Below are positions 3-24,892 of a DNA stretch of 28,000 nt, piece by piece. The translations under genes were made by a program, and so were the position numbers. Each line of letters begins with the position of its first letter. Position 1 is the stretch's first letter. The stretch is from positions 1 to 28,000 of IMG/VR virus record IMGVR_UViG_3300020373_000009; one strand, written 5' to 3'. The notes under the pieces were generated by a model. It did not search any database. It was given only the letters and a program-made list of their open reading frames with translations, and had not been told where the DNA came from. The DNA is from a virus.

Positions 3-3000
3 GCACGTGGTATGAATGGCATGCCTGTTGATAGAGAAACAGCAGAACGTATGTATGAAGCACAAAGTAATATAAATTTTGATGAGTCTATTATAAATAC
101 TCTTGCCGAACAAAGAAAAGAAGGACAGCAAAGGATTGGTGGAGTTCTTAAAGCAGATGATGTTGCTAATGTGTCTTCTAGGATGGCGAATAGACAGTAC
201 AAAGTCTTTGAAGGATTTATGAGAAGCTTGCGTAACTATAGCAGCTCTCCCTTACAAGCCACAAGATTTACAGAAAAGTATTTGGGCGGTAGATTTAAAG
301 AGTTTTCAAATGAATCTGCAGAAGAATTAGTCTATACTTTTATGGCTACACATTCTGCTCTTGCAGAGAGACGACCTGATGCTGCACGTATGTGGTCAGA
401 CATGATGATGCTTGCAGTATTAGACCATACCTTAAGAAATGTTTATAGGTATGAGCAGAAGAAAAAGCAAGCAGAAGGTGCGGAAGCTGATGAAACTACA
501 CAGCAAGCTCAAGATAGATTTGATGAAACATTAATGACTGGTGCTGCAGATGAAGTTGCTATTGGTTCTATGATATTTAAGAACATGGGTTTTGATGGAG
601 CAAGTAGAGATCAGAAAGCTATGCTTGGTGCAATGGCTCAGTCAATGGTATTTGAAACATTTAGAAAAGAAGCTCCTTATACTAAAGGTGATAGAGCAAC
701 ACATGAAAAAGCATTAGTAAAAAGAATAATACATGAAGAAGGCGTGGGCGCAAATAAAAGAAAGAACATAGCATATACACTTACAGATGAAGGCATAGCA
801 GTTGCAGAAGATTTTGAAGGATTATTTAATGCAGTGATGCCTCAGTCTACCAGAGATGTTCGATATGGCAATAAGAAGACAGATCAAACAGCTATTAATA
901 AACTTATTGATATGCCTGTTGCTGTTATGGAAGATGGTTCATATCAGTATCAAGGTTACACCGTTCCTTTTGGTAACACAGCAGAAGCTGCTGCTCAAAA
1001 AGAACAAGCAGAGAATGTCCCCGTTACAATCCATAGACCAACAGCTGATTTTTTAACCAGACTTAGAGATGAGTTTGCAGAATCTGGATTTCAATTAGAA
1101 TATGCAGACAACATAGAAAACGTCTTGGCTATACTTGACCATTCTAAGTTTTATAATATTAAAGGAAATGGTTTAGGTTGGAAAGGTGCATTTGGAGAAA
1201 GACCCGGAAGAGTTTATACTACAAATAGAAAGGGACAATTAATACATAAGGATTCTCCTTCTCTTATTACTGAAGGTGCTGAAGAAAGAATAACACAGAA
1301 TACAGAAGAAGCACATTATCAAGATGACTTTAGTGATAAAGTAAAAGATGCAAGTTTTCTTCAGACATTAGCTTGGGCTGAAAGAAATTTAGATAAAACT
1401 TTTTATTATGATTATGTATATGGAAAAAACTGGAGACTTAGTGTTGACCAAACAATAGGTAACTATCAACATAACAAATTAGCTAGAGCTTTGATTGCTT
1501 CTGGCAAACCAGCTACTTATCTTTTAAATAATCTTGACCATGTTATTCGTTTAAAAGCAGGAGTCATGAGAAGATTTGGATTTGATAATAAAAACCCAGA
1601 TCAAGCTGCTCTTAAATATGATGAGATGATAGACCAGTTTGTTGCAATTAAAAATAGTCCACAACAAATCTTACAACTCGCTACAGAGCATGAGGGTTGG
1701 GCTTCAGTTGCTTCAATATTAGAAGCTATAGCAATTAAGGAAGCATTAGACGCACCGGGTAAGATGCATTATACTTCTGGTTTCTTTACAGAGGTTGATG
1801 GAAAGACTAATGGTCTTGGTTGGTCAGCTATGCAGTCAGGAGATAGAAATACTGCAGCAGGAGCATTTATATTTAATGCAGAAGATTATGCTGTTTGGGC
1901 TAAACACTATGATCGCATTGAAGAGTTTCAAACTGCTGGTGATTTAGAAGGACTTAAAGCTTTCTCTAGAGATGTAATGGGAGACGAGTCATTCTTTAAT
2001 AGATATCTTGATGCTTATAATAAAGTCAACAATCAAATGAAAGGTAAGTTTACTGGCGTTAAAGGTGGTAATTTTGTAAGCTATCCTTCTATGATACATG
2101 ACAAAGCTGATGCAGCTATTAAACAAATAATGCAAAGAGCACAAGAGACTGGTGGACCAGAGAACTTTAGAAGGGCTTTAGAAATATTTGAAGAGAATAA
2201 ACTTGGTAGAGCTTTTACTAAAAAACCTGTGATGATTTTTGGTTATGGTGCTGGTGGTGCTAGACATATTGAACAAGTCAGAGCTTTTATTAATGAGATA
2301 ATTAAAAGAGATACTACTGGAATCTTAGATAAGTTTGACAAAGAAGGGATTGATATTGATACTCAATTCATAGACCCACTTGGAGCTATGATGTCAGAAG
2401 CTATTAATATAAACTTCCCAGTAATTAAAGCCTTTGCAAACATGATATCGTTAGCTGCCAATGAAGCTGTGACTCAAGGATTTGATTTATTTCCTGTTAC
2501 AATGGCTGGTCATAGAGTACCTATCGGTGGAGAAACGTGGTGGTTAAGTCAAGAAAGAGGAGCTAACAGAGCTTTTAGTTATACACATCCAGAACATTTA
2601 AACAAAGATGGAGTACCTCAGACTGTTAAAGGTATGGCTCATGAAATGAAAGTTGTTTGGGATTTCTCTGCCAAGAAGAAGTATACGCAGAAGAAAGCGG
2701 TTAAAGATGAACAAGGTCAGTTGATGACCGAAGAATCTATGGCTGAGATTTTAAGGGCTGCGACACAAGCAGTTGTTATGTTGAATCACGCTAATGATAA
2801 TATTAATATGCAGCGTGCTCGTATGCGTAGACATGATGAGATTATTGCAGACTTGATGGCTCAAGCTAAAGCTGATGGAAAGCCTTTTGTTAAAGACCAT
2901 ACTACTGTTGGTGATACATCCTTGCATATTTTTGATGCTGACTTAGTTACATCTATGGAAGCAGAGAAAACAACAGATGCTTTAAATGATGTCTTCCAAG

Positions 3001-3530
3001 ATATGAATAGTCGTACAGATCAAAGTCATATACAATCTATTTATAAGGTATTAACTTTTGATGTAGATGAGAATGGAGAATTAATAGAGGATGAGTTTGC
3101 AAATACTATAGTAGATACTCCTAAGTATAAAGCTATGAATTCTATTAACAAAGAAAAAACTAAGTATCGCAGACGTTTAAAACCAGAAGGTGTTGCTCAG
3201 GCTGAGTTACTTAAGATTTCCACATGGGATAAGATGTTTGATGGATTAAAAGATGACTTTGGAAGAGTCATTGAACCTTCTATGGCTTTCGATTGGGATA
3301 TAGCCGATGAGATAGATGGTAAAAATACTATTAAACATTCTAGATCTTTAAATCAATTAAGAATAAAGAGTGTTGGAGATAAGAATGATTTTACTAGAGG
3401 AACTAAGTTAAATAATTTTAAAGATGGTGTTACTAATGTAAAACAATTCTTTTATTCAACTAAATCTTTAGAAGAATTAATTAAAGACTTGAAAGGTTCT
3501 TTAGATTATATGATTAAGAAACCTGCGTAA
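3..3530 (+). CDS. Giant virion-type single-subunit RNA polymerase-like protein (partial, C-terminal part)
   Basis: The frame is open to the window edge, so the protein probably starts upstream; numbering is from Met at base 12. It has the hallmarks of the T7/N4 single-subunit RNA polymerase fold. The T-motif region reads YVYGK (468-472), where T7 has DxRGR. Motif A reads DGKTNG (596-601). Motif B is R733-x3-K737-x7-Y745-G, with the spacing of T7 R627/K631/Y639 and the same RxxTKxxVMxxxYG pattern. A motif C candidate is HIFDAD (972-977), with D975 as possible second metal ligand. Residue spacing (A to B 149, B to C 230) is wider than in T7 and closer to N4 virion RNAP. The gene ends a late-strand cluster, far from the separate T7-like RNAP, as expected for a packaged polymerase. 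Catalytic activity is inferred; the Lys for Arg in the T-motif and the atypical motif C are oddities. The alternative is an inactive internal virion protein derived from an RNAP. Confidence 0.7.
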   Translation, partial: ARGMNGMPVDRETAERMYEAQSNINFDESIINTLAEQRKEGQQRIGGVLKADDVANVSSRMANRQYKVFEGFMRSLRNYSSSPLQATRFTEKYLGGRFKEFSNESAEELVYTFMATHSALAERRPDAARMWSDMMMLAVLDHTLRNVYRYEQKKKQAEGAEADETTQQAQDRFDETLMTGAADEVAIGSMIFKNMGFDGASRDQKAMLGAMAQSMVFETFRKEAPYTKGDRATHEKALVKRIIHEEGVGANKRKNIAYTLTDEGIAVAEDFEGLFNAVMPQSTRDVRYGNKKTDQTAINKLIDMPVAVMEDGSYQYQGYTVPFGNTAEAAAQKEQAENVPVTIHRPTADFLTRLRDEFAESGFQLEYADNIENVLAILDHSKFYNIKGNGLGWKGAFGERPGRVYTTNRKGQLIHKDSPSLITEGAEERITQNTEEAHYQDDFSDKVKDASFLQTLAWAERNLDKTFYYDYVYGKNWRLSVDQTIGNYQHNKLARALIASGKPATYLLNNLDHVIRLKAGVMRRFGFDNKNPDQAALKYDEMIDQFVAIKNSPQQILQLATEHEGWASVASILEAIAIKEALDAPGKMHYTSGFFTEVDGKTNGLGWSAMQSGDRNTAAGAFIFNAEDYAVWAKHYDRIEEFQTAGDLEGLKAFSRDVMGDESFFNRYLDAYNKVNNQMKGKFTGVKGGNFVSYPSMIHDKADAAIKQIMQRAQETGGPENFRRALEIFEENKLGRAFTKKPVMIFGYGAGGARHIEQVRAFINEIIKRDTTGILDKFDKEGIDIDTQFIDPLGAMMSEAININFPVIKAFANMISLAANEAVTQGFDLFPVTMAGHRVPIGGETWWLSQERGANRAFSYTHPEHLNKDGVPQTVKGMAHEMKVVWDFSAKKKYTQKKAVKDEQGQLMTEESMAEILRAATQAVVMLNHANDNINMQRARMRRHDEIIADLMAQAKADGKPFVKDHTTVGDTSLHIFDADLVTSMEAEKTTDALNDVFQDMNSRTDQSHIQSIYKVLTFDVDENGELIEDEFANTIVDTPKYKAMNSINKEKTKYRRRLKPEGVAQAELLKISTWDKMFDGLKDDFGRVIEPSMAFDWDIADEIDGKNTIKHSRSLNQLRIKSVGDKNDFTRGTKLNNFKDGVTNVKQFFYSTKSLEELIKDLKGSLDYMIKKPA

Positions 3531-11280: not shown

Positions 11281-11790
11281 TTAAAATGGAACGTCTTCGT
11301 CCTTATCTTCTAGTTCAGCAGTTGGGCGTTCAAGATAAGTAAACTCATCTCCTCCAGTGCCACCTTCGTATTCTACAAGTTCCATGACTTGTACTCCTAC
11401 TAGTGTTGCTGTGATTCCAGTTTTACCTGCGTATTCCCATGGTCTTTCCATGTATTGTACGTTGCAAACAGAACCATTGCCTATTAATGTTTCACCCATG
11501 TTATCACCGTACTTATCTTTTACGAATGGAGCAGATATTTCCATCTTTTCCATAGCACCTGTGATAGGGTTTTTCTTATTGAAGTGAGTGTTTCGTTTAA
11601 TTTTTACGAAAGGTGTGCCATCTTCAGGATCAAAGCGTTCTTTCTGTGCGAATCCTTTAGCGACCCATTCCTTAGATTGTTCTGGTGTTACATGACAATC
11701 TATTGTCCACTCAGTATCTTCTGAGGCATATTTGTTTGCAGGGTTGCTGCCAACTCTTGCCCATTTTACTTTTACATTATTTAAAATCAT
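11281..11790 (-). CDS. T7 gp2.5-type single-stranded DNA-binding protein
   Basis: The 169-aa product matches T7 gp2.5 in layout. The C-terminal half has IGNGSVCNVQYMERPWEYAGK and GVQVMELVEYEGG, equivalent to the T7 IGGGSKLKVKYSLVPYKW and SVMLVELATF strands of the OB-fold. It ends in an acidic tail with a terminal Phe (DKDEDVPF). In T7 that tail recruits polymerase and helicase-primase. It is the first gene after the leftward T7-type promoter, behind a 234-nt structured leader. The phage also has a second, bacterial-type SSB at 22635-23084. Confidence 0.85.
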   Translation of the reverse strand: MILNNVKVKWARVGSNPANKYASEDTEWTIDCHVTPEQSKEWVAKGFAQKERFDPEDGTPFVKIKRNTHFNKKNPITGAMEKMEISAPFVKDKYGDNMGETLIGNGSVCNVQYMERPWEYAGKTGITATLVGVQVMELVEYEGGTGGDEFTYLERPTAELEDKDEDVPF

Positions 11791-12024
11791 GTTGATTTTC
11801 CTTTGTTACTTGTTATAAATGGTGAGGGTTTCTCACCGCCTTAAGTGCTCACGTAAAGTGAACTACTTGTTTCTTTAAGCAAGTCCGTAGGACTTGCCAA
11901 TAAAAAGTGCCATACATAACTCATTGGAGGTGTGGTAGTAATGAGAATGTATGGCGTTACTTTTAGCTGTATTACTACCACGGATTACAGCTGTAATATA
12001 TTTAAAAAGTTGTTTGCTTTTCCT
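11791..12024 (-). promoter_or_regulatory. Structured 5' leader of the replication operon with competing helices
   Basis: This 234-nt stretch has no gene. From the predicted start near 12024 it holds several elements: a 14-bp perfect palindrome (11984-11997); an 11-bp perfect inverted repeat (11932-11942 with 11971-11981); and a composite hairpin (11910-11917 with 11947-11954, plus 11920-11925 with 11940-11945) that shares bases 11940-11942 with the 11-bp helix. Next come a GTA-loop hairpin (11879-11897) and a GGTGAG/CTCACC hairpin (11819-11835) just before the SSB ribosome site. The overlap means the two main helices cannot form together, as in attenuators. Regulation is inferred. Confidence 0.6.
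11870..11897 (-). promoter_or_regulatory. TCNNTAM + GTA-triloop hairpin element (upstream of gp2.5-like SSB)
   Basis: The flank TTTCTTTAA (plus strand) is followed without gap by a perfect 8-bp stem with a GTA loop: GCAAGTCC-GTA-GGACTTGC (11879-11897). The closing C(GTA)G is a GNA triloop of the kind known to be stable in single-stranded DNA. The same architecture recurs at eight other places upstream of leftward genes. Candidate leftward promoter for a virion RNAP, or an RNA hairpin. Confidence 0.6.
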
Positions 12025-12041
12025 ATAGGGGGTCAATCAAA
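12019..12041 (-). promoter_or_regulatory. T7-type phage RNAP promoter, leftward (replication operon)
   Basis: On the minus strand this 23-nt segment is identical to plus 24941-24963. Its core GACCCCCTATAGGAAA parallels the T7 promoter core GACTCACTATAGGGAG: TATAGG with GAC upstream at the same distance. Transcription would start at the first G after TATA, about 12024. It overlaps the stop codon of the DUF3310 gene and faces the gp2.5-like SSB, helicase and primase. The cognate polymerase is presumably the T7-like RNAP encoded at 12737-15181. Confidence 0.85.
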
Positions 12042-12736: not shown

Positions 12737-15181
12737 CTAACAAAAGAAAAAGTCTGATGCGTATATATCTTCCAGTATTAAACTTCCTACTTCAGGTGTA
12801 TCTTTATCAAACAATTCGTTATTCCATATTAATTCTTCACGCATATTTGCAAATATATCTTTAGCATACATTTTAATGAACTCACTTTTGGTTATATATA
12901 TAAGTTCTTCGACATTAGCAGCATGAACACTGAAGCTGTCGTGAATTGCACCAAAACTTTCAAGGTCTATTTTATTTATGACTAATGACATATGGCTTGC
13001 ATCATAAGAATGCACCCAGTTAGCACCAATAGCAGAAAGATGTTCTGCTAGGGCAGGTTTATCAGTTACATCTAAATAAACGTGATGTATTTTTCTTTTT
13101 TGTATTACACCTTGATATACTTTTTTACGGGCTACCCATTTTTGTGTAAGTACAGGGAAACCACTGGGTGTAGACCATGATATGTCCTTTAGTTGCATAT
13201 TATTTATTTTATGTGCAACTAATGCTTGTAAATATTTCTTTATTTCTACTGGACCATGGCATATAGAGTCATATGCTATAACTAAATCCTTGCCTAATGA
13301 TTTAGAGTCCGATCTTGTTATGTTATATGTTGATGTAATGCCAGCGTCATATGAATCTTGATATATTATTTCACCAATTTTTCTAGCACCTGCGTCATAT
13401 GCTCTTGTCATTGAGCCACGTTTACTAATACCTTTTCTGATTAGTTTCATTGGTATGTTTTTCATCTTTAAACCAATGTCAGTGTCTTTATTTATTTCTA
13501 ATATTTTCTTGCCCATTACCAAGTAGAAATCCTTTGGCATTTTCATTGGGGTAAGTCCCACTAGTTTTCCAGCTTTTTCATCTCTAGACATTGCTGCTAA
13601 ATGTTGCGTACCGTTGTTAACTCCGTCAATTGAGATTGGCATAGAAGAATAATGTGGTTCACCAGCAAGTGCGCTGCCAACTATTCCGCCTATTTCAAAA
13701 CACAAAGATAAGAATACCCAAGGTTTCTCAGCTGACATCCAATAATCTATATGTTCTATTGGTTGTTCTGCTACATCTAATATATTCTCTATATTTTCTA
13801 TTGTCCAGTTGTGTTTGTCTAATACACCCATTTTATCTACGGATATGTCTACTAAACCGTCTTCTTTTAATGGTTTTATGTAATCTAATGTAAGCCATTC
13901 TTGTTTGTTGAGTTCATCAATATTATATGTTTGATTATATGATGTGGCAGCGTGTATAAAAGTATATTCCGCACCTTTTTGGTCTACTTCTTTTTCATTG
14001 GCAAATAGAAAATGACCTCTAGCTAAATCATTTGATTGATAACTAAAGTATGGATCACGATTATATATTCTGCCTCTGTAATCTAAATACATTGATTGAT
14101 AAAATTCATATCCTAACCAGCCGGGAGTAGTTGCATTACCGTTGATTGTTTCTAAAATTGCCTTATTTCTTGTTGCTTGTGACTGTTTTCTTAGACAATA
14201 TTGCTTATCAGTCCATCTTCTGTTCTCTAAATTGTATTTTTTGCGTATTTTTTCCAGTTTTTTAGTTGTTTCTTCTATTTTTTGTTCGTTTTTCAGCTTT
14301 TCAATCCTATTTGTGAGTATTTCTATCTCTTTTTCTAGCTTGGGTACGGAACTTGAGTTGCCTAGATGAGGTTCAAACAGGTCTTCATCTTTATACAATG
14401 CTATATCTTTAAGATGTTCGTTAATATGTTGACGTTTGATGTCAATTGTGTTGAACATTACAGGATTTCCATCAGCATCTTTAAGTTCAATTTGAGTGTC
14501 AATTAGTTTTGTTCTTAGTTGCAAACTAACTTCAGCGACTTGAGGGTTTATTTTCCAGCGTACATTTTCAAGTCGGTTGATTGATTCCATAAAAGGTTTG
14601 TTTTGATCGTTTTTGTCAGTTTTTACATTTGATTTAATCAGTTTTTCTTCAACACCTTGTGTTTTACGTTTACCATTTTTCCATGTTTTATATTTATACA
14701 TCGATATGCCAATTCTTTCTCTAGGGTTGGTTGAGATTTTTATAAAGTTTTCACCCATTTCCAGTCTATAAGGGTTGTAATTGATTTTTTTCTTATTTCC
14801 TTTGTTGTATACCTCTTCTACTCTGAAAAACGGCTCACGGAGAAGCACAAGGTATCTCTCTTCAATTAAAACGTCTAAGAGGAAGTCCCCTACCATTATC
14901 GACTTAGCGTCCGTAGAATTGGATTCTCGTGCGTCTAAGACATTTAGGACAATATCACCTATATTCTTACTTGTGTTCGTTAATTTGATGCTTCCCTCTT
15001 CAATTCTCATTTTTTGTATGAGATAATTGAATATCATATTGAGCATTTTTACGCTACGATAATCATTGTAAACACATTGTGTGTCCCTAAATATTGTAGC
15101 TGCTAGTGATTTATTATTATTTCTTGAAGTAACTTTATTTTCAAGAATATCAGCAAGTTGATTTATTTTGTTGTTGTCCAC
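12737..15181 (-). CDS. T7-like single-subunit DNA-directed RNA polymerase
   Basis: The 814-aa product (T7 RNAP 883 aa) starts at GTG, 4 nt after GGAGG. All catalytic motifs are present: DYRGR (367-371), motif A S-I-D519-G-VNNGTQH, motif B with K587 and Y595 in SKRGSMTRAYD, and motif C IH747-D748-SFSV. D519 and D748 are the metal-binding aspartates. The C-terminus ends in aromatic residues (SDFFFC), comparable to the T7 FAFA foot that contributes to the active site. Residues ~270-320 (KLEKEIEILTNRIEKLKNEQ) look like a coiled coil. It should transcribe from the two identical CCCCTATAGG promoters in this window. Confidence 0.97.
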   Translation of the reverse strand: MDNNKINQLADILENKVTSRNNNKSLAATIFRDTQCVYNDYRSVKMLNMIFNYLIQKMRIEEGSIKLTNTSKNIGDIVLNVLDARESNSTDAKSIMVGDFLLDVLIEERYLVLLREPFFRVEEVYNKGNKKKINYNPYRLEMGENFIKISTNPRERIGISMYKYKTWKNGKRKTQGVEEKLIKSNVKTDKNDQNKPFMESINRLENVRWKINPQVAEVSLQLRTKLIDTQIELKDADGNPVMFNTIDIKRQHINEHLKDIALYKDEDLFEPHLGNSSSVPKLEKEIEILTNRIEKLKNEQKIEETTKKLEKIRKKYNLENRRWTDKQYCLRKQSQATRNKAILETINGNATTPGWLGYEFYQSMYLDYRGRIYNRDPYFSYQSNDLARGHFLFANEKEVDQKGAEYTFIHAATSYNQTYNIDELNKQEWLTLDYIKPLKEDGLVDISVDKMGVLDKHNWTIENIENILDVAEQPIEHIDYWMSAEKPWVFLSLCFEIGGIVGSALAGEPHYSSMPISIDGVNNGTQHLAAMSRDEKAGKLVGLTPMKMPKDFYLVMGKKILEINKDTDIGLKMKNIPMKLIRKGISKRGSMTRAYDAGARKIGEIIYQDSYDAGITSTYNITRSDSKSLGKDLVIAYDSICHGPVEIKKYLQALVAHKINNMQLKDISWSTPSGFPVLTQKWVARKKVYQGVIQKRKIHHVYLDVTDKPALAEHLSAIGANWVHSYDASHMSLVINKIDLESFGAIHDSFSVHAANVEELIYITKSEFIKMYAKDIFANMREELIWNNELFDKDTPEVGSLILEDIYASDFFFC

Positions 15182-21776: not shown

Positions 21777-22634
21777 TTCTTTTCCTCTTTATTAAATTAG
21801 GTGCAGTTTTTTCGGTTGATGCTTAGTAGATATAATCGCTTATCTAATCAATAAGTTATCTGGTCACCGTATTCTTCCAAGTGTTTTCTTTAACCATACG
21901 GTTTGTTTTCAGACTGCAAACTGTGTTTTCACTTCTCATTACTATTTCTTTACATCACATTATAAGGAATTCATCATTCTTATTATGCATTGATTAGTAT
22001 CTCGTAAAGCAATATAGTAACCGTTATATTGTTTTTCTAGCAGTGACGTGTTACTAGAGTCATACTCGGGACATTCATATTAAATGAGCAGTTTATTTTG
22101 TCGCCCACAAGTGTGAGTAGCGACTATCTATTCAGCACCCACGTGAGAATCTCTAAGACTGAATAAATATCGCAAGGCTTACTAGTATTATTAATTCTAC
22201 CTTGCTTATCAAACATATACCCGTATACGACATCTAGTATAGTTTGAGTTTGGTGAGAGAAGACTACGCTTTAATTCAACGGAATTTAGTGTATGGTAGT
22301 TTTAGCCACAACTTCTCTCATAATTAATGGGCACTTTAACGTGATACCCGGCACGTAGAGAGAAAGATAAGCCATAATTCTATAGGAGAGAATTAATCTA
22401 ACATCTTTCTAATATAGCATTAACGTATGCCCAAACGCCTGCAGGAGCAACAGGATTGAAACTTAGCACCCTTATTTCTATGGGTTTTAGACTCCAAAAA
22501 AACTAATAAATAACGATCTTACTTCGATATTTATCCCTACACACGACCGTATGGTCGTGTAGGATTGATAATATTTTATCAAATAACACTTTGAGTGCGT
22601 GTAATCGTGTTATCTACACGCACCTAACTGCTAT
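21777..22634 (-). other. Long hairpin-rich non-coding region
   Basis: About 860 nt without a convincing gene but crowded with inverted repeats. These include TATTCAG/CTGAATA (22129-22135 with 22159-22165), GCAAGG/CCTTGC (22172-22177 with 22200-22205), and TGAGAGAAG/CTTCTCTCA (22254-22262 with 22312-22320). A nested pair has outer arms 22361-22368/22403-22410 (8 bp) and inner arms 22375-22381/22389-22395 (7 bp). The distal end has an 8-bp GTAT-loop hairpin (22541-22560) and a 9-bp GTGCGTGTA/TACACGCAC stem before the SSB stop. Likely a structured leader or one or more small RNAs of the leftward transcript; strand is inferred from context. Confidence 0.5.
22532..22560 (-). promoter_or_regulatory. 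TCNNTAM + GTAT-loop hairpin element
   Basis: Flank TATCCCTAC is followed directly by ACACGACC-GTAT-GGTCGTGT, a perfect 8-bp stem. Same architecture and orientation as the tandem array at 24692-24856. It would serve the structured region and the 57-aa gene to its left. Confidence 0.55.
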
Positions 22635-23084
22635 CTAAAAGTCAATGTCATCGTCTAATTCAGACGGAGTGTCATTGTTTGGTGCACCAGCAACCACTGC
22701 ACCTCTACGTTCTAATGACTGAATGTCACCACCAGCCATACGATTGACTTCGATATAGTGCTTAACTCTATCGATGCCGTCTTCAAGTTGATACTTGCTA
22801 GAACGCATCTTACCACGAACTTCAGTAAGAAAGCCTTTCTTCAAGACATCTTCATAATATTTATGAACGCCTTGTCCTACTGTAGACTTGATAATTGTTT
22901 CTATCTTATGCCACTCTGTGTTAGAACGTGGCTCACCAGTTATTTTATCTTTCCATTTATCTGATGTAGCAATAGAAAACGTATATTTAGTATCACCGTT
23001 ACTCAAAGTGGTGATGCCACCGTTTTTGCGAGTACAATCATCGCCTAGATACCCTATGACTTGGGCTAAGTTTAAGTTTGCCAT
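22635..23084 (-). CDS. ssb: Bacterial-type single-stranded DNA-binding protein (SSB)
   Basis: A 149-aa OB-fold SSB: ANLNLAQVIGYLGDD, then YTFSIATSDKWKDKITGEP, NTEWHKIETI, and the strand FLTEVRGKMRSSKYQLEDG, matching E. coli-type SSB spacing. It ends in the acidic tip DDDIDF, which in bacteria recruits replication proteins. Good ribosome site AAGGAGTCTTAA. It is encoded in the early region, far from the gp2.5-like SSB. In N4, host SSB activates the virion RNAP at hairpin promoters, so a phage SSB near hairpin elements is notable. Confidence 0.93.
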   Translation of the reverse strand: MANLNLAQVIGYLGDDCTRKNGGITTLSNGDTKYTFSIATSDKWKDKITGEPRSNTEWHKIETIIKSTVGQGVHKYYEDVLKKGFLTEVRGKMRSSKYQLEDGIDRVKHYIEVNRMAGGDIQSLERRGAVVAGAPNNDTPSELDDDIDF

Positions 23085-23151: not shown

Positions 23152-23179
23152 AATCTATAAGCCATTCTGTAAGAATGGC
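23152..23179 (-). promoter_or_regulatory. TCNNTAM + GTA-triloop hairpin element upstream of ssb
   Basis: Flank AATCTATAA is followed by GCCATTCT-GTA-AGAATGGC (23161-23179); two more A-T pairs extend the stem to 10 bp. It lies 68 nt before the ssb start. A second hairpin, ATTATGTTT/AAACATAAT, sits between it and the gene. Confidence 0.6.
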
Positions 23180-23595: not shown

Positions 23596-23997
23596 TTAAC
23601 CAATAAGAAAGCGACCGTGCTTTGCTTTCTCTTTATGAACAACAAGTTTTATCTTTTTAGGTGAAACTTGTATGTTACTAAGAATACCAGTGCCTTTCTT
23701 GCCGACATTCAATGCAGGAAGAAAGTATGCAACAGTATCACCGACTTTAGCAATGTTAAAGCCATTGGTCTTCTTAACTTTGTCGACATTATCTTTAGTA
23801 ACATCGACAACTCGCCAAGAATCTGGATGTGCTTTAGCACACGCTAGTATCTTGGCAAGATTAGGTTTCTTCAATGATTTGATTTTCATTGTAGAAGATG
23901 GATTGCTCTTGCCGTTCCAGACAAGGTCAAGCATCATACCCTTGACTTCACTTATTAGTGTTTTATCGACCACAACGTCAGCAGGATTTGCACCCAT
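23596..23997 (-). CDS. Hypothetical basic protein, 133 aa
   Basis: Start placed at MGANPADVVVDK, preceded by AAGGAGTTAGAT; upstream in-frame ATGs fall in the hairpin region. Rich in Lys and Val with no acidic tail, so it may bind nucleic acid. Second half GDTVAYFLPALNVGKKGTGIL and IKLVVHKEKAKHGRFLIG reads like a small beta-barrel. No family recognised. Confidence 0.72.
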   Translation of the reverse strand: MGANPADVVVDKTLISEVKGMMLDLVWNGKSNPSSTMKIKSLKKPNLAKILACAKAHPDSWRVVDVTKDNVDKVKKTNGFNIAKVGDTVAYFLPALNVGKKGTGILSNIQVSPKKIKLVVHKEKAKHGRFLIG

Positions 23998-24035: not shown

Positions 24036-24064
24036 TGTCACTAAGCATCTCAGTATTGAGATGC
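24036..24064 (-). promoter_or_regulatory. TCNNTAM + GTAT-loop hairpin element
   Basis: Flank TGTCACTAA is followed by GCATCTCA-GTAT-TGAGATGC (24045-24064), a perfect 8-bp stem. It lies 39 nt before the 133-aa gene start, same orientation as the others. Confidence 0.55.
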
Positions 24065-24134: not shown

Positions 24135-24185
24135 AGCAAACGATAAAGACTACTCAATTGCTCTTGAGTAGTCTTGACTTTTGCT
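24135..24185 (-). promoter_or_regulatory. Composite intergenic hairpin, 12-bp inner stem
   Basis: A perfect 12-bp stem AAGACTACTCAA/TTGAGTAGTCTT (24146-24157 with 24164-24175) is enclosed by AGCAAA/TTTGCT. Layout and the shared GTCTTGACTTTT tail match the composite hairpin at 23543-23593. It lies just downstream of the 132-aa gene; possibly a processing site in the leftward mRNA. Confidence 0.55.
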
Positions 24186-24191
24186 CTAATA

Positions 24192-24590
24192 CTATGGAAA
24201 TATTGTATCAGTAACTTGTTGCGACCACTCTTCTTGAGTAGTTTTAACAACAGTGAAAATATGTGATGCATCTTCTATGTCACCACCACAAACTATACAT
24301 TTACCATATGTATCGTTTGATGTACATCTATCTTCCAATTGGCACAATATACTAACTGGAAGATTTGTAACGTGTCGTTCCATTAGCACTTCATTTATGT
24401 GATGAATACGACCAATGTTACGATGAACTTGAACTTCAAGTTCATTTTGCCTCCAGTTGTATTCAAATGGTGAATATGCTGAAGATTCTAAGTGTAGTTC
24501 GTAACCACACTCATCTAACTCATCTATCTCATCTGAATAAGTCTGTGCTTTATCGATGAGTTCTTTCTCTGTGGCTCTATACAAGTCCAT
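24192..24590 (-). CDS. Hypothetical protein with C-terminal cysteine cluster, 132 aa
   Basis: The first gene of the leftward block. Helical N-terminus (YRATEKELIDKAQTYSDEIDEL), then a middle with ENYNW-like aromatic residues, then a helix pair IGRIHHINEVLMERHV. Cysteines C83, C89 and C98-x2-C101 (KCIVCGGD) suggest a zinc site. Good ribosome site AAGGAGTAACAT. As first gene downstream of the hairpin array it is probably the earliest expressed. No family recognised. Confidence 0.75.
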   Translation of the reverse strand: MDLYRATEKELIDKAQTYSDEIDELDECGYELHLESSAYSPFEYNWRQNELEVQVHRNIGRIHHINEVLMERHVTNLPVSILCQLEDRCTSNDTYGKCIVCGGDIEDASHIFTVVKTTQEEWSQQVTDTIFP

Positions 24591-24654: not shown

Positions 24655-24676
24655 AAGAACACGCTAAGAACACGCT
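24655..24676. repeat. Tandem 11-mer duplication AAGAACACGCT x2
   Basis: Two perfect adjacent copies (24655-24665, 24666-24676) in the leader of the leftward block, next to the hairpin array. A different 11-mer is duplicated the same way at 25157-25178. Confidence 0.8.
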
Positions 24677-24691
24677 GTGTGCTCTTGATGT

Positions 24692-24856
24692 ATTCTCTAC
24701 GATAAACTGTAAGTTTATCTATCTGTATTCTCTACGACAAACTGTAAGTTTGTCTATCTTTATCTCTAACAGGCACTGTAAGTGTCTGTATCTTTCATCT
24801 CTACAAGCACCCGTGGGTGCTAGCTGTTATCTCTACCAGTGTCGGTACGACATCTG
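24692..24856 (-). repeat. Tandem array of five hairpin elements (candidate promoters)
   Basis: Five units with loops at about 24709, 24744, 24778, 24813 and 24845 (period 32-35 nt). Each has a conserved flank ending TCTCTAC (once TCTCTAA) on the plus strand, directly before or within 1 nt of a stem. Stems differ but stay paired: GATAAACT/AGTTTATC, GACAAACT/AGTTTGTC, CAGGCACT/AGTGTCTG (one G.T), AGCACCC/GGGTGCT, and TGTCG/CGACA extended by CAG/CTG across a bulge. Loops are GTA in four, shorter in the fourth. Pairing kept while sequence changes indicates selection for structure. The flank lies on the downstream side for leftward transcription, which heads for the early genes. Compare N4 virion RNAP hairpin promoters. 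Confidence 0.75.
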
Positions 24857-24892
24857 GGGGGTATCCGAGTTTATCGAGGATACCCTTGTATA

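Follow-up and report, generated by a model that had tools for sequence, protein, structure and literature searches.

The window, i.e., the whole 28,000-nt stretch of viral DNA that was analysed (positions 1 to 28,000 of IMG/VR record IMGVR_UViG_3300020373_000009), contains a tandem array of five short repeat units at 24693-24856, followed on the leftward side by a gene of 132 aa without homologues in either phages or viral_contigs. The features of this locus are as follows:

24693-24719, + strand: array unit 1, flank TTCTCTAC and hairpin 24701-24719 (8 bp, GTA loop)
24728-24754, + strand: array unit 2, flank TTCTCTAC and hairpin 24736-24754 (8 bp, GTA loop)
24762-24788, + strand: array unit 3, flank ATCTCTAA and hairpin 24770-24788 (8 bp including one G.T, GTA loop)
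24797-24821, + strand: array unit 4, flank ATCTCTACA and hairpin 24806-24821 (6 bp, CGTG loop; weaker)
24829-24856, + strand: array unit 5, flank ATCTCTAC and hairpin 24837-24856 (8 pairs, one bulged T, GTA loop; weaker)
24192-24590, - strand: first leftward gene after the array, 132 aa, no known family
24146-24175, - strand: hairpin resembling an intrinsic terminator after the first leftward gene, serving as a control class

Each unit opens with a constant 5′ flank (TCTCTAC or TCTCTAA), whose TCTCTA starts at 24694, 24729, 24763, 24798 and 24830 (i.e., a spacing of 35, 34, 35 and 32 nt), and continues into a hairpin whose stem differs from unit to unit or is compensated. DNA folding indicated that all five units form hairpins as single-stranded DNA, namely GATAAACT-GTA-AGTTTATC in unit 1 (z -5.5), GACAAACT-GTA-AGTTTGTC in unit 2 (z -5.2), CAGGCACT-GTA-AGTGTCTG with one G.T in unit 3 (z -5.6), AGCACC-CGTG-GGTGCT of 6 bp and offset by 1 nt in unit 4 (z -3.2), and CAGTGTCG-GTA-CGACA(T)CTG with one bulged T in unit 5 (z -2.2). 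Judged by these z-scores, units 4 and 5 are weaker than units 1-3. Moreover, since units 1 and 2 are near copies (94% identical, differing by one compensated pair), the five units comprise four really different stems. An earlier note on this DNA had described five tandem hairpins with constant flanks and a GTA loop in four of the five, and both statements hold at 24693-24856, with a unit spacing of 32-35 nt. Throughout the array, the + strand is the template for leftward transcription.

A general hairpin scan of the window revealed the same anatomy singly at 24045-24064, 23161-23179, 22541-22560 and 11879-11897, before leftward genes. All four dispersed hairpins have 8-bp stems and GTA or GTAT loops, and are found on the + strand:

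24039-24064, + strand: single hairpin promoter candidate, CACTAA and GCATCTCA-GTAT-TGAGATGC, before the leftward gene at 23596 (start probably 23997)
23155-23179, + strand: single hairpin promoter candidate, CTATAA and GCCATTCT-GTA-AGAATGGC, before the SSB gene
22534-22560, + strand: single hairpin promoter candidate, TCCCTAC and ACACGACC-GTAT-GGTCGTGT, before a leftward non-coding region
11872-11897, + strand: single hairpin promoter candidate, TCTTTAA and GCAAGTCC-GTA-GGACTTGC, before the gp2.5-like gene
22635-23084, - strand: single-stranded DNA-binding protein (PF00436), early gene behind hairpin 23161
11281-11790, - strand: gp2.5-like ssDNA-binding protein, behind hairpin 11879

When a descriptor composed of the flank, an 8-bp stem and a loop of 3-5 nt was scanned against Markov nulls, nine matches were obtained on the + strand (seven with GTA or GTAT loops) versus 0.25-0.28 expected per strand, a count that is not fully independent because the array itself had served to tune the descriptor; the dispersed copies and the relatives provide the more independent evidence. 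The single match on the - strand was the palindromic site at 23161, and none of the Markov nulls contained more than one match within 140 bp. In every instance within the window, this anatomy precedes a leftward gene or transcribed region by ~40-110 nt. Just past hairpin 22541, the - strand region 21777-22535 extends for ~750 nt without long leftward ORFs and looks like a large structured non-coding RNA; it is strongly conserved in the relatives L001/L018 and L167 and partially in L169, with variable inserts, and a search for an Rfam match to this region returned none.

Related viral contigs from uncultured marine phages were found via the 814-aa RNA polymerase (RNAP) encoded in the window (16 contigs) or via a terminase fragment (29 contigs). 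Beside a conserved landmark that lies to the right of the array, three of these (L161, L169 and L176) carry tandem hairpins with flanks such as TTATCTTTAC, CTTG loops and other stems, while in L152 and the sister contig G005 (L024) the array is replaced by two single hairpins whose loops are GCA. A clear array was not seen in the terminase-bearing relatives L154, L157, L158, L163 and L167. In L161 and L169, single hairpins also occur 30-135 nt before leftward genes. A model built from the 4-nt-loop units matched the GTA unit at 11867 (E 0.022) as well as the L161 and L176 arrays (E 0.05-0.3), i.e., across loop types. Searching viral_contigs with the pattern TCTCTAC-N20-34-TCTCTAC gave no new array among the matches listed, which looked like chance, and no such hairpins were found in the part examined of Roseobacter phage CRP-7, which has a related RNAP. 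No relatives were found in GTDB genomes.

The site before the gp2.5-like gene was picked by gene homology, independently of the hairpin, in 17 records, one of which has unread bases at this point. In all 16 readable records (the window and 15 relatives) a hairpin was present, its distance from the start codon being the same throughout. Thirteen of these records retain eight standard pairs, of which no more than one is G.T, compared with 1.4% of random placements; given their shared ancestry and the near-identity of some, they do not amount to 13 independent events. Three more have a shorter or mismatched hairpin. The stems at this one site include GCAAGTCC, AGATGCCT, GGACACCG, AAGCCACT, AGAAGCCC, GGACAACG and CAAGCTC, and the loops GTA, GAA, GCA, CTTG, AAG and AAA. 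Changes on both sides of pairs were scored in two alignments and lay far above shuffled and slid controls: all eight pairs covary in the 3-nt-loop set (98.4% paired) and seven of the eight in the 4-nt-loop set (100% paired). The selection on structure that the earlier note had read from the array is thereby supported, pairing being kept across differing stems, whether one compares the units of the array or the positionally equivalent sites of relatives. The same note had named related phages without a conserved array as evidence against its reading, and the array proved to be kept at the same place in several relatives.

Two RNA polymerases are relevant to these sites, together with a second class of promoter-like sequence:

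3-3530, + strand: C-terminal 1175 aa of a predicted N4-type virion RNA polymerase (vRNAP) of ~1400 aa, start outside the window
12737-15181, - strand: T7-type single-subunit RNA polymerase, 814 aa
24941-24963, + strand: promoter-like motif TTTGATTGACCCCCTATAGGAAA, before rightward late genes
12019-12041, - strand: second copy of TTTGATTGACCCCCTATAGGAAA, before the gp2.5/helicase operon (middle genes)

The gene for the ~1400-aa protein adjoins a virion structural gene. Taken alone, the partial ORF in the window had no match in Pfam, among PDB sequences or by tblastn in phages, and detecting its homology required full-length, diverse relatives. A full-length homologue matched PHROG 414 (RNA polymerase) at 2.4e-10, and the family profile aligned with nine schitovirus vRNAPs (hhalign 99.0%, E 2.4e-18) over 382 columns that include motif A (TEVDGLTNG vs. 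VEADGVTNG) and motif B (KKPVMIFGYGAG vs. KNPLTITIYGSG), vs. 47.8% for the 814-aa T7-type RNAP of the phage itself; hhalign against N4 alone was not significant. By tblastn against 50,697 phage records, the L180 relative matched N4-like Vibrio phages only, at their vRNAP place. A structure model based on 14 sequences was usable (pLDDT 57.8 vs. 37 with four sequences), and its top matches were single-subunit RNAPs, including mitochondrial ones (T7, Z 20.1; N4 vRNAP with promoter, Z 17.7).

Absence of cysteine is a noted trait of vRNAPs (PMC3715699), which furthermore share the motif ExDGxxxG and range in length from 2842 to 3820 aa (PMC10654107). All 12 homologues examined lack cysteine and contain ExDGxxxG, while the 814-aa RNAPs contain cysteines and lack this motif; the longest homologues, at 1362-1414 aa, fall outside the published length range. 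Because its gene lies beside a virion structural gene and it has no cysteine, the ~1400-aa protein is presumably packaged in the virion and injected. Two virion-cluster proteins encoded before the vRNAP in one relative (712 and 1360 aa; L017:3808-10041) are likewise free of cysteine, like ejection proteins. In another contig (G004, i.e., L022/L023; 17419-21620) the vRNAP gene is spread over three overlapping ORFs, reflecting frameshifts or sequencing errors.

The 23-nt motif TTTGATTGACCCCCTATAGGAAA is present in two identical copies in the window, and similar motifs occur in a dozen relatives. It is probably the promoter of the 814-aa T7-type RNAP, and this enzyme and its separate duplex motif would then probably serve the middle and late genes.

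From position, structure and homology we infer that the hairpin units are N4-type early promoters, folded on the template DNA strand and read by the virion RNA polymerase, a reading to which we assign a probability of roughly 80%. After injection, the + strand of the negatively supercoiled DNA would fold into a short hairpin of ~8 bp with a loop of 3-5 nt, and the virion-carried single-subunit RNAP, encoded at the left end of the window, would bind this template-strand hairpin. Leftward RNA, at whose start in this region the earlier note had hinted, would begin within the constant flank, ~10-13 nt from the loop centre and probably at the third base from the stem; as the start base on the template would be T or C, the RNA would begin with a purine. 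The five tandem promoters would feed the first leftward gene and the single hairpins further early genes, including those of the phage's own SSB and gp2.5-like proteins, so that the SSB would be one of the earliest proteins made. Middle and late genes would then be transcribed from the duplex promoters TTTGATTGACCCCCTATAGGAAA by the T7-type RNAP, itself a product of the early region. This split between polymerases is not a clean one, since the gp2.5 gene has both a hairpin and a duplex motif.

That same gene bears on a different assignment, in which the hairpins would be promoters read by the 814-aa T7-type RNAP made in the cell rather than by the virion enzyme, given that the gp2.5/helicase operon, which lies downstream of the RNAP gene, has a hairpin before it as well. 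However, a separate conserved T7-like motif (CCCCCTATAGGAAA) suits this enzyme, T7-type RNAPs compared in PMC4496689 read duplex promoters, and the RNAP gene must itself be transcribed first while the hairpins sit in the early region. We therefore regard the 814-aa enzyme as an unlikely reader of the hairpins.

The hairpins could also act in the transcript, as a leader, as processing sites or as protein-binding sites, since an RNA leader could make use of hairpins repeated in tandem with constant flanks, and RNA folding would keep the pairing too. The strand on which they fold argues otherwise. For all instances in the window the + strand is the template of the leftward gene, and among hairpins with a wobble G.T was found on the flank-bearing strand six times vs. 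none on the other, with no A.C on the flank-bearing strand; this count is small and comes from scans that tolerated G.T more than A.C, and wobble polarity alone was taken from the curated-unit table, which had been selected for pairing. On leftward RNA these G.T pairs turn into A.C mismatches. Likewise, unit 3 folds at -6.1 kcal/mol on the + strand vs. -4.0 on the - strand. Rightward RNA, for its part, would be antisense to the early genes, and a late leader would not include the array, because the late rightward motif lies beyond it, from 24941 onwards. No Rfam match above the gathering score was obtained. The folded strand is thus most likely the DNA template strand rather than RNA, and a role in the transcript appears quite improbable. 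Terminator-like hairpins at 24175-24146 and 23580-23557 belong to another class, as they lie on the - strand and the second has its wobble on that (transcript) strand.

Tandem repeats at a divergent junction, in a phage that encodes two ssDNA-binding proteins, would also fit a replication origin or a cruciform site bound by a replication or packaging protein. Against this, hairpins also stand singly before other early genes, and their stems have no fixed sequence, as an ordinary dyad operator would, so that we consider such a site very unlikely; the dyad operator itself was rejected on the same ground. Finally, intrinsic terminators or chance palindromes carry a negligible probability: a terminator scan does flag several units, but lacking a good T run (no array unit has one directly after the stem on the leftward strand), better terminators lie after genes on the other strand, and nine descriptor matches face 0.25-0.28 expected per strand. 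CRISPR, tRNA and Rfam families were also considered for the array and rejected, and the statement of the earlier note that the array is not a terminator, CRISPR or tRNA stands.

For the promoter reading, the closest known counterpart is formed by the early promoters P1-P3 of N4 (Schitoviridae, vRNAP gp50). N4 hairpins are extruded by gyrase, the template hairpin is stabilised by host SSB, and non-conserved stem bases may vary if pairing is kept, while the vRNAP reads a purine at -11, G at -10, G at -8 and C at +1 (PMC4496689). In promoters of this type, RNA starts ~11 nt from the loop centre, at a C of the template. As a control, the first 7 kb of N4 were scanned in a way similar to the window (stem of at least 5 bp, 3-nt loop with a purine centre), yielding a list of eight template-strand hairpins, including those before gp1, gp2 and gp15; GTTGC-GAA-GCAAC, AAGAAGC-GGA-GCTTCTT and AAGCTGC-GGA-GCAGCTT show the known features of P1-P3. 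Both systems share a short template-strand hairpin just upstream of early genes, a small loop (GNA in the window), a variable stem with pairing kept, and a cysteine-free single-subunit RNAP encoded in the virion gene cluster.

They differ in stem length (~8 bp vs. 5-7 bp in N4), in the flank (CTCTAC vs. CCAAAA), in the presence of five tandem units, unlike the N4 early promoters, and in the polymerase, which at ~1400 aa is 2.5 times shorter than the 3500 aa of N4. The loop centre is T or C (T in the window) instead of a purine. The N4 loop rule (3 nt, purine at -11, G at -10) does not describe these loops: GTA and GTAT have G first and T next, and CTTG has no G at that position. Since the loop centre in the window is T and relatives also use CTTG and TTTA, recognition details must differ from those of N4. 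The covariance model R1 built from the present hairpins did not match the N4 promoters, indicating that no promoter sequence is shared. By analogy, the hairpins would nevertheless work like N4 early promoters despite failing the -11 purine test.

Other N4-like phages show a similar mixture of agreement and difference. Pseudomonas phages LIT1, LUZ7 and PEV2 have predicted hairpins with 3-nt loops before early genes and an injected vRNAP, but their stems are 4-5 bp, each gene has one hairpin, and they lie within the Schitoviridae with a heterodimeric second RNAP (PMC3715699). Schitoviridae combine a heterodimeric middle RNAP (gp15/gp16) with a vRNAP of ~3500 aa, whereas the 28,000-nt window encodes an 814-aa RNAP and a vRNAP of ~1400 aa; with the vRNAP too short and the second RNAP a single chain, this is not a schitovirus system by the features tested. 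The 814-aa RNAP and the CCCTATAGG motif resemble an autographivirus-like T7-type system, which corresponds to the second transcription class of the phage, separate from the hairpin array.

With odds slightly better than even, these phages represent a lineage outside the Schitoviridae in which a compact (~1400 aa) injected RNAP uses template-strand hairpins, partly in tandem, and reads the fold rather than fixed bases. The latter is suggested by the interchange of GTA, GAA, GCA, CTTG and AAG loops at one site between relatives. In the literature found, no phages other than N4 and members of its family are described as using hairpin promoters of single-stranded template DNA. The occurrence of such promoters in uncultured marine phages, alongside a vRNAP that is not even half as large, would imply that a minimal promoter-reading machine is separable from the giant ejection protein; the natural promoter variants, which number in the dozens, would help to establish which features the polymerase recognises, and the compact enzyme may be able to initiate RNA synthesis on a single-stranded DNA template.

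Further elements adjoin the hairpin sites. Between the duplex motif and the gp2.5 hairpin, a conserved RNA-like element at 11900-12010 (- strand) is found in nearly all relatives; it consists of a GCCATAC/GTATGGC stem enclosing CTCAT/ATGAG and is followed by a T run, and its loop ACTACCAC could pair with the upstream GTGGTAGT into a pseudoknot. To the right of the array, 24857-24890 holds a palindrome (GGGTATCC...GGATACCC), and different palindromes occupy the corresponding position in L161 and L176. A perfect 11-nt tandem duplication (AAGAACACGCT) borders the array on its left, at 24655-24676; L161, L169 and L176 have the related sequence AAGAACACGC in this position.
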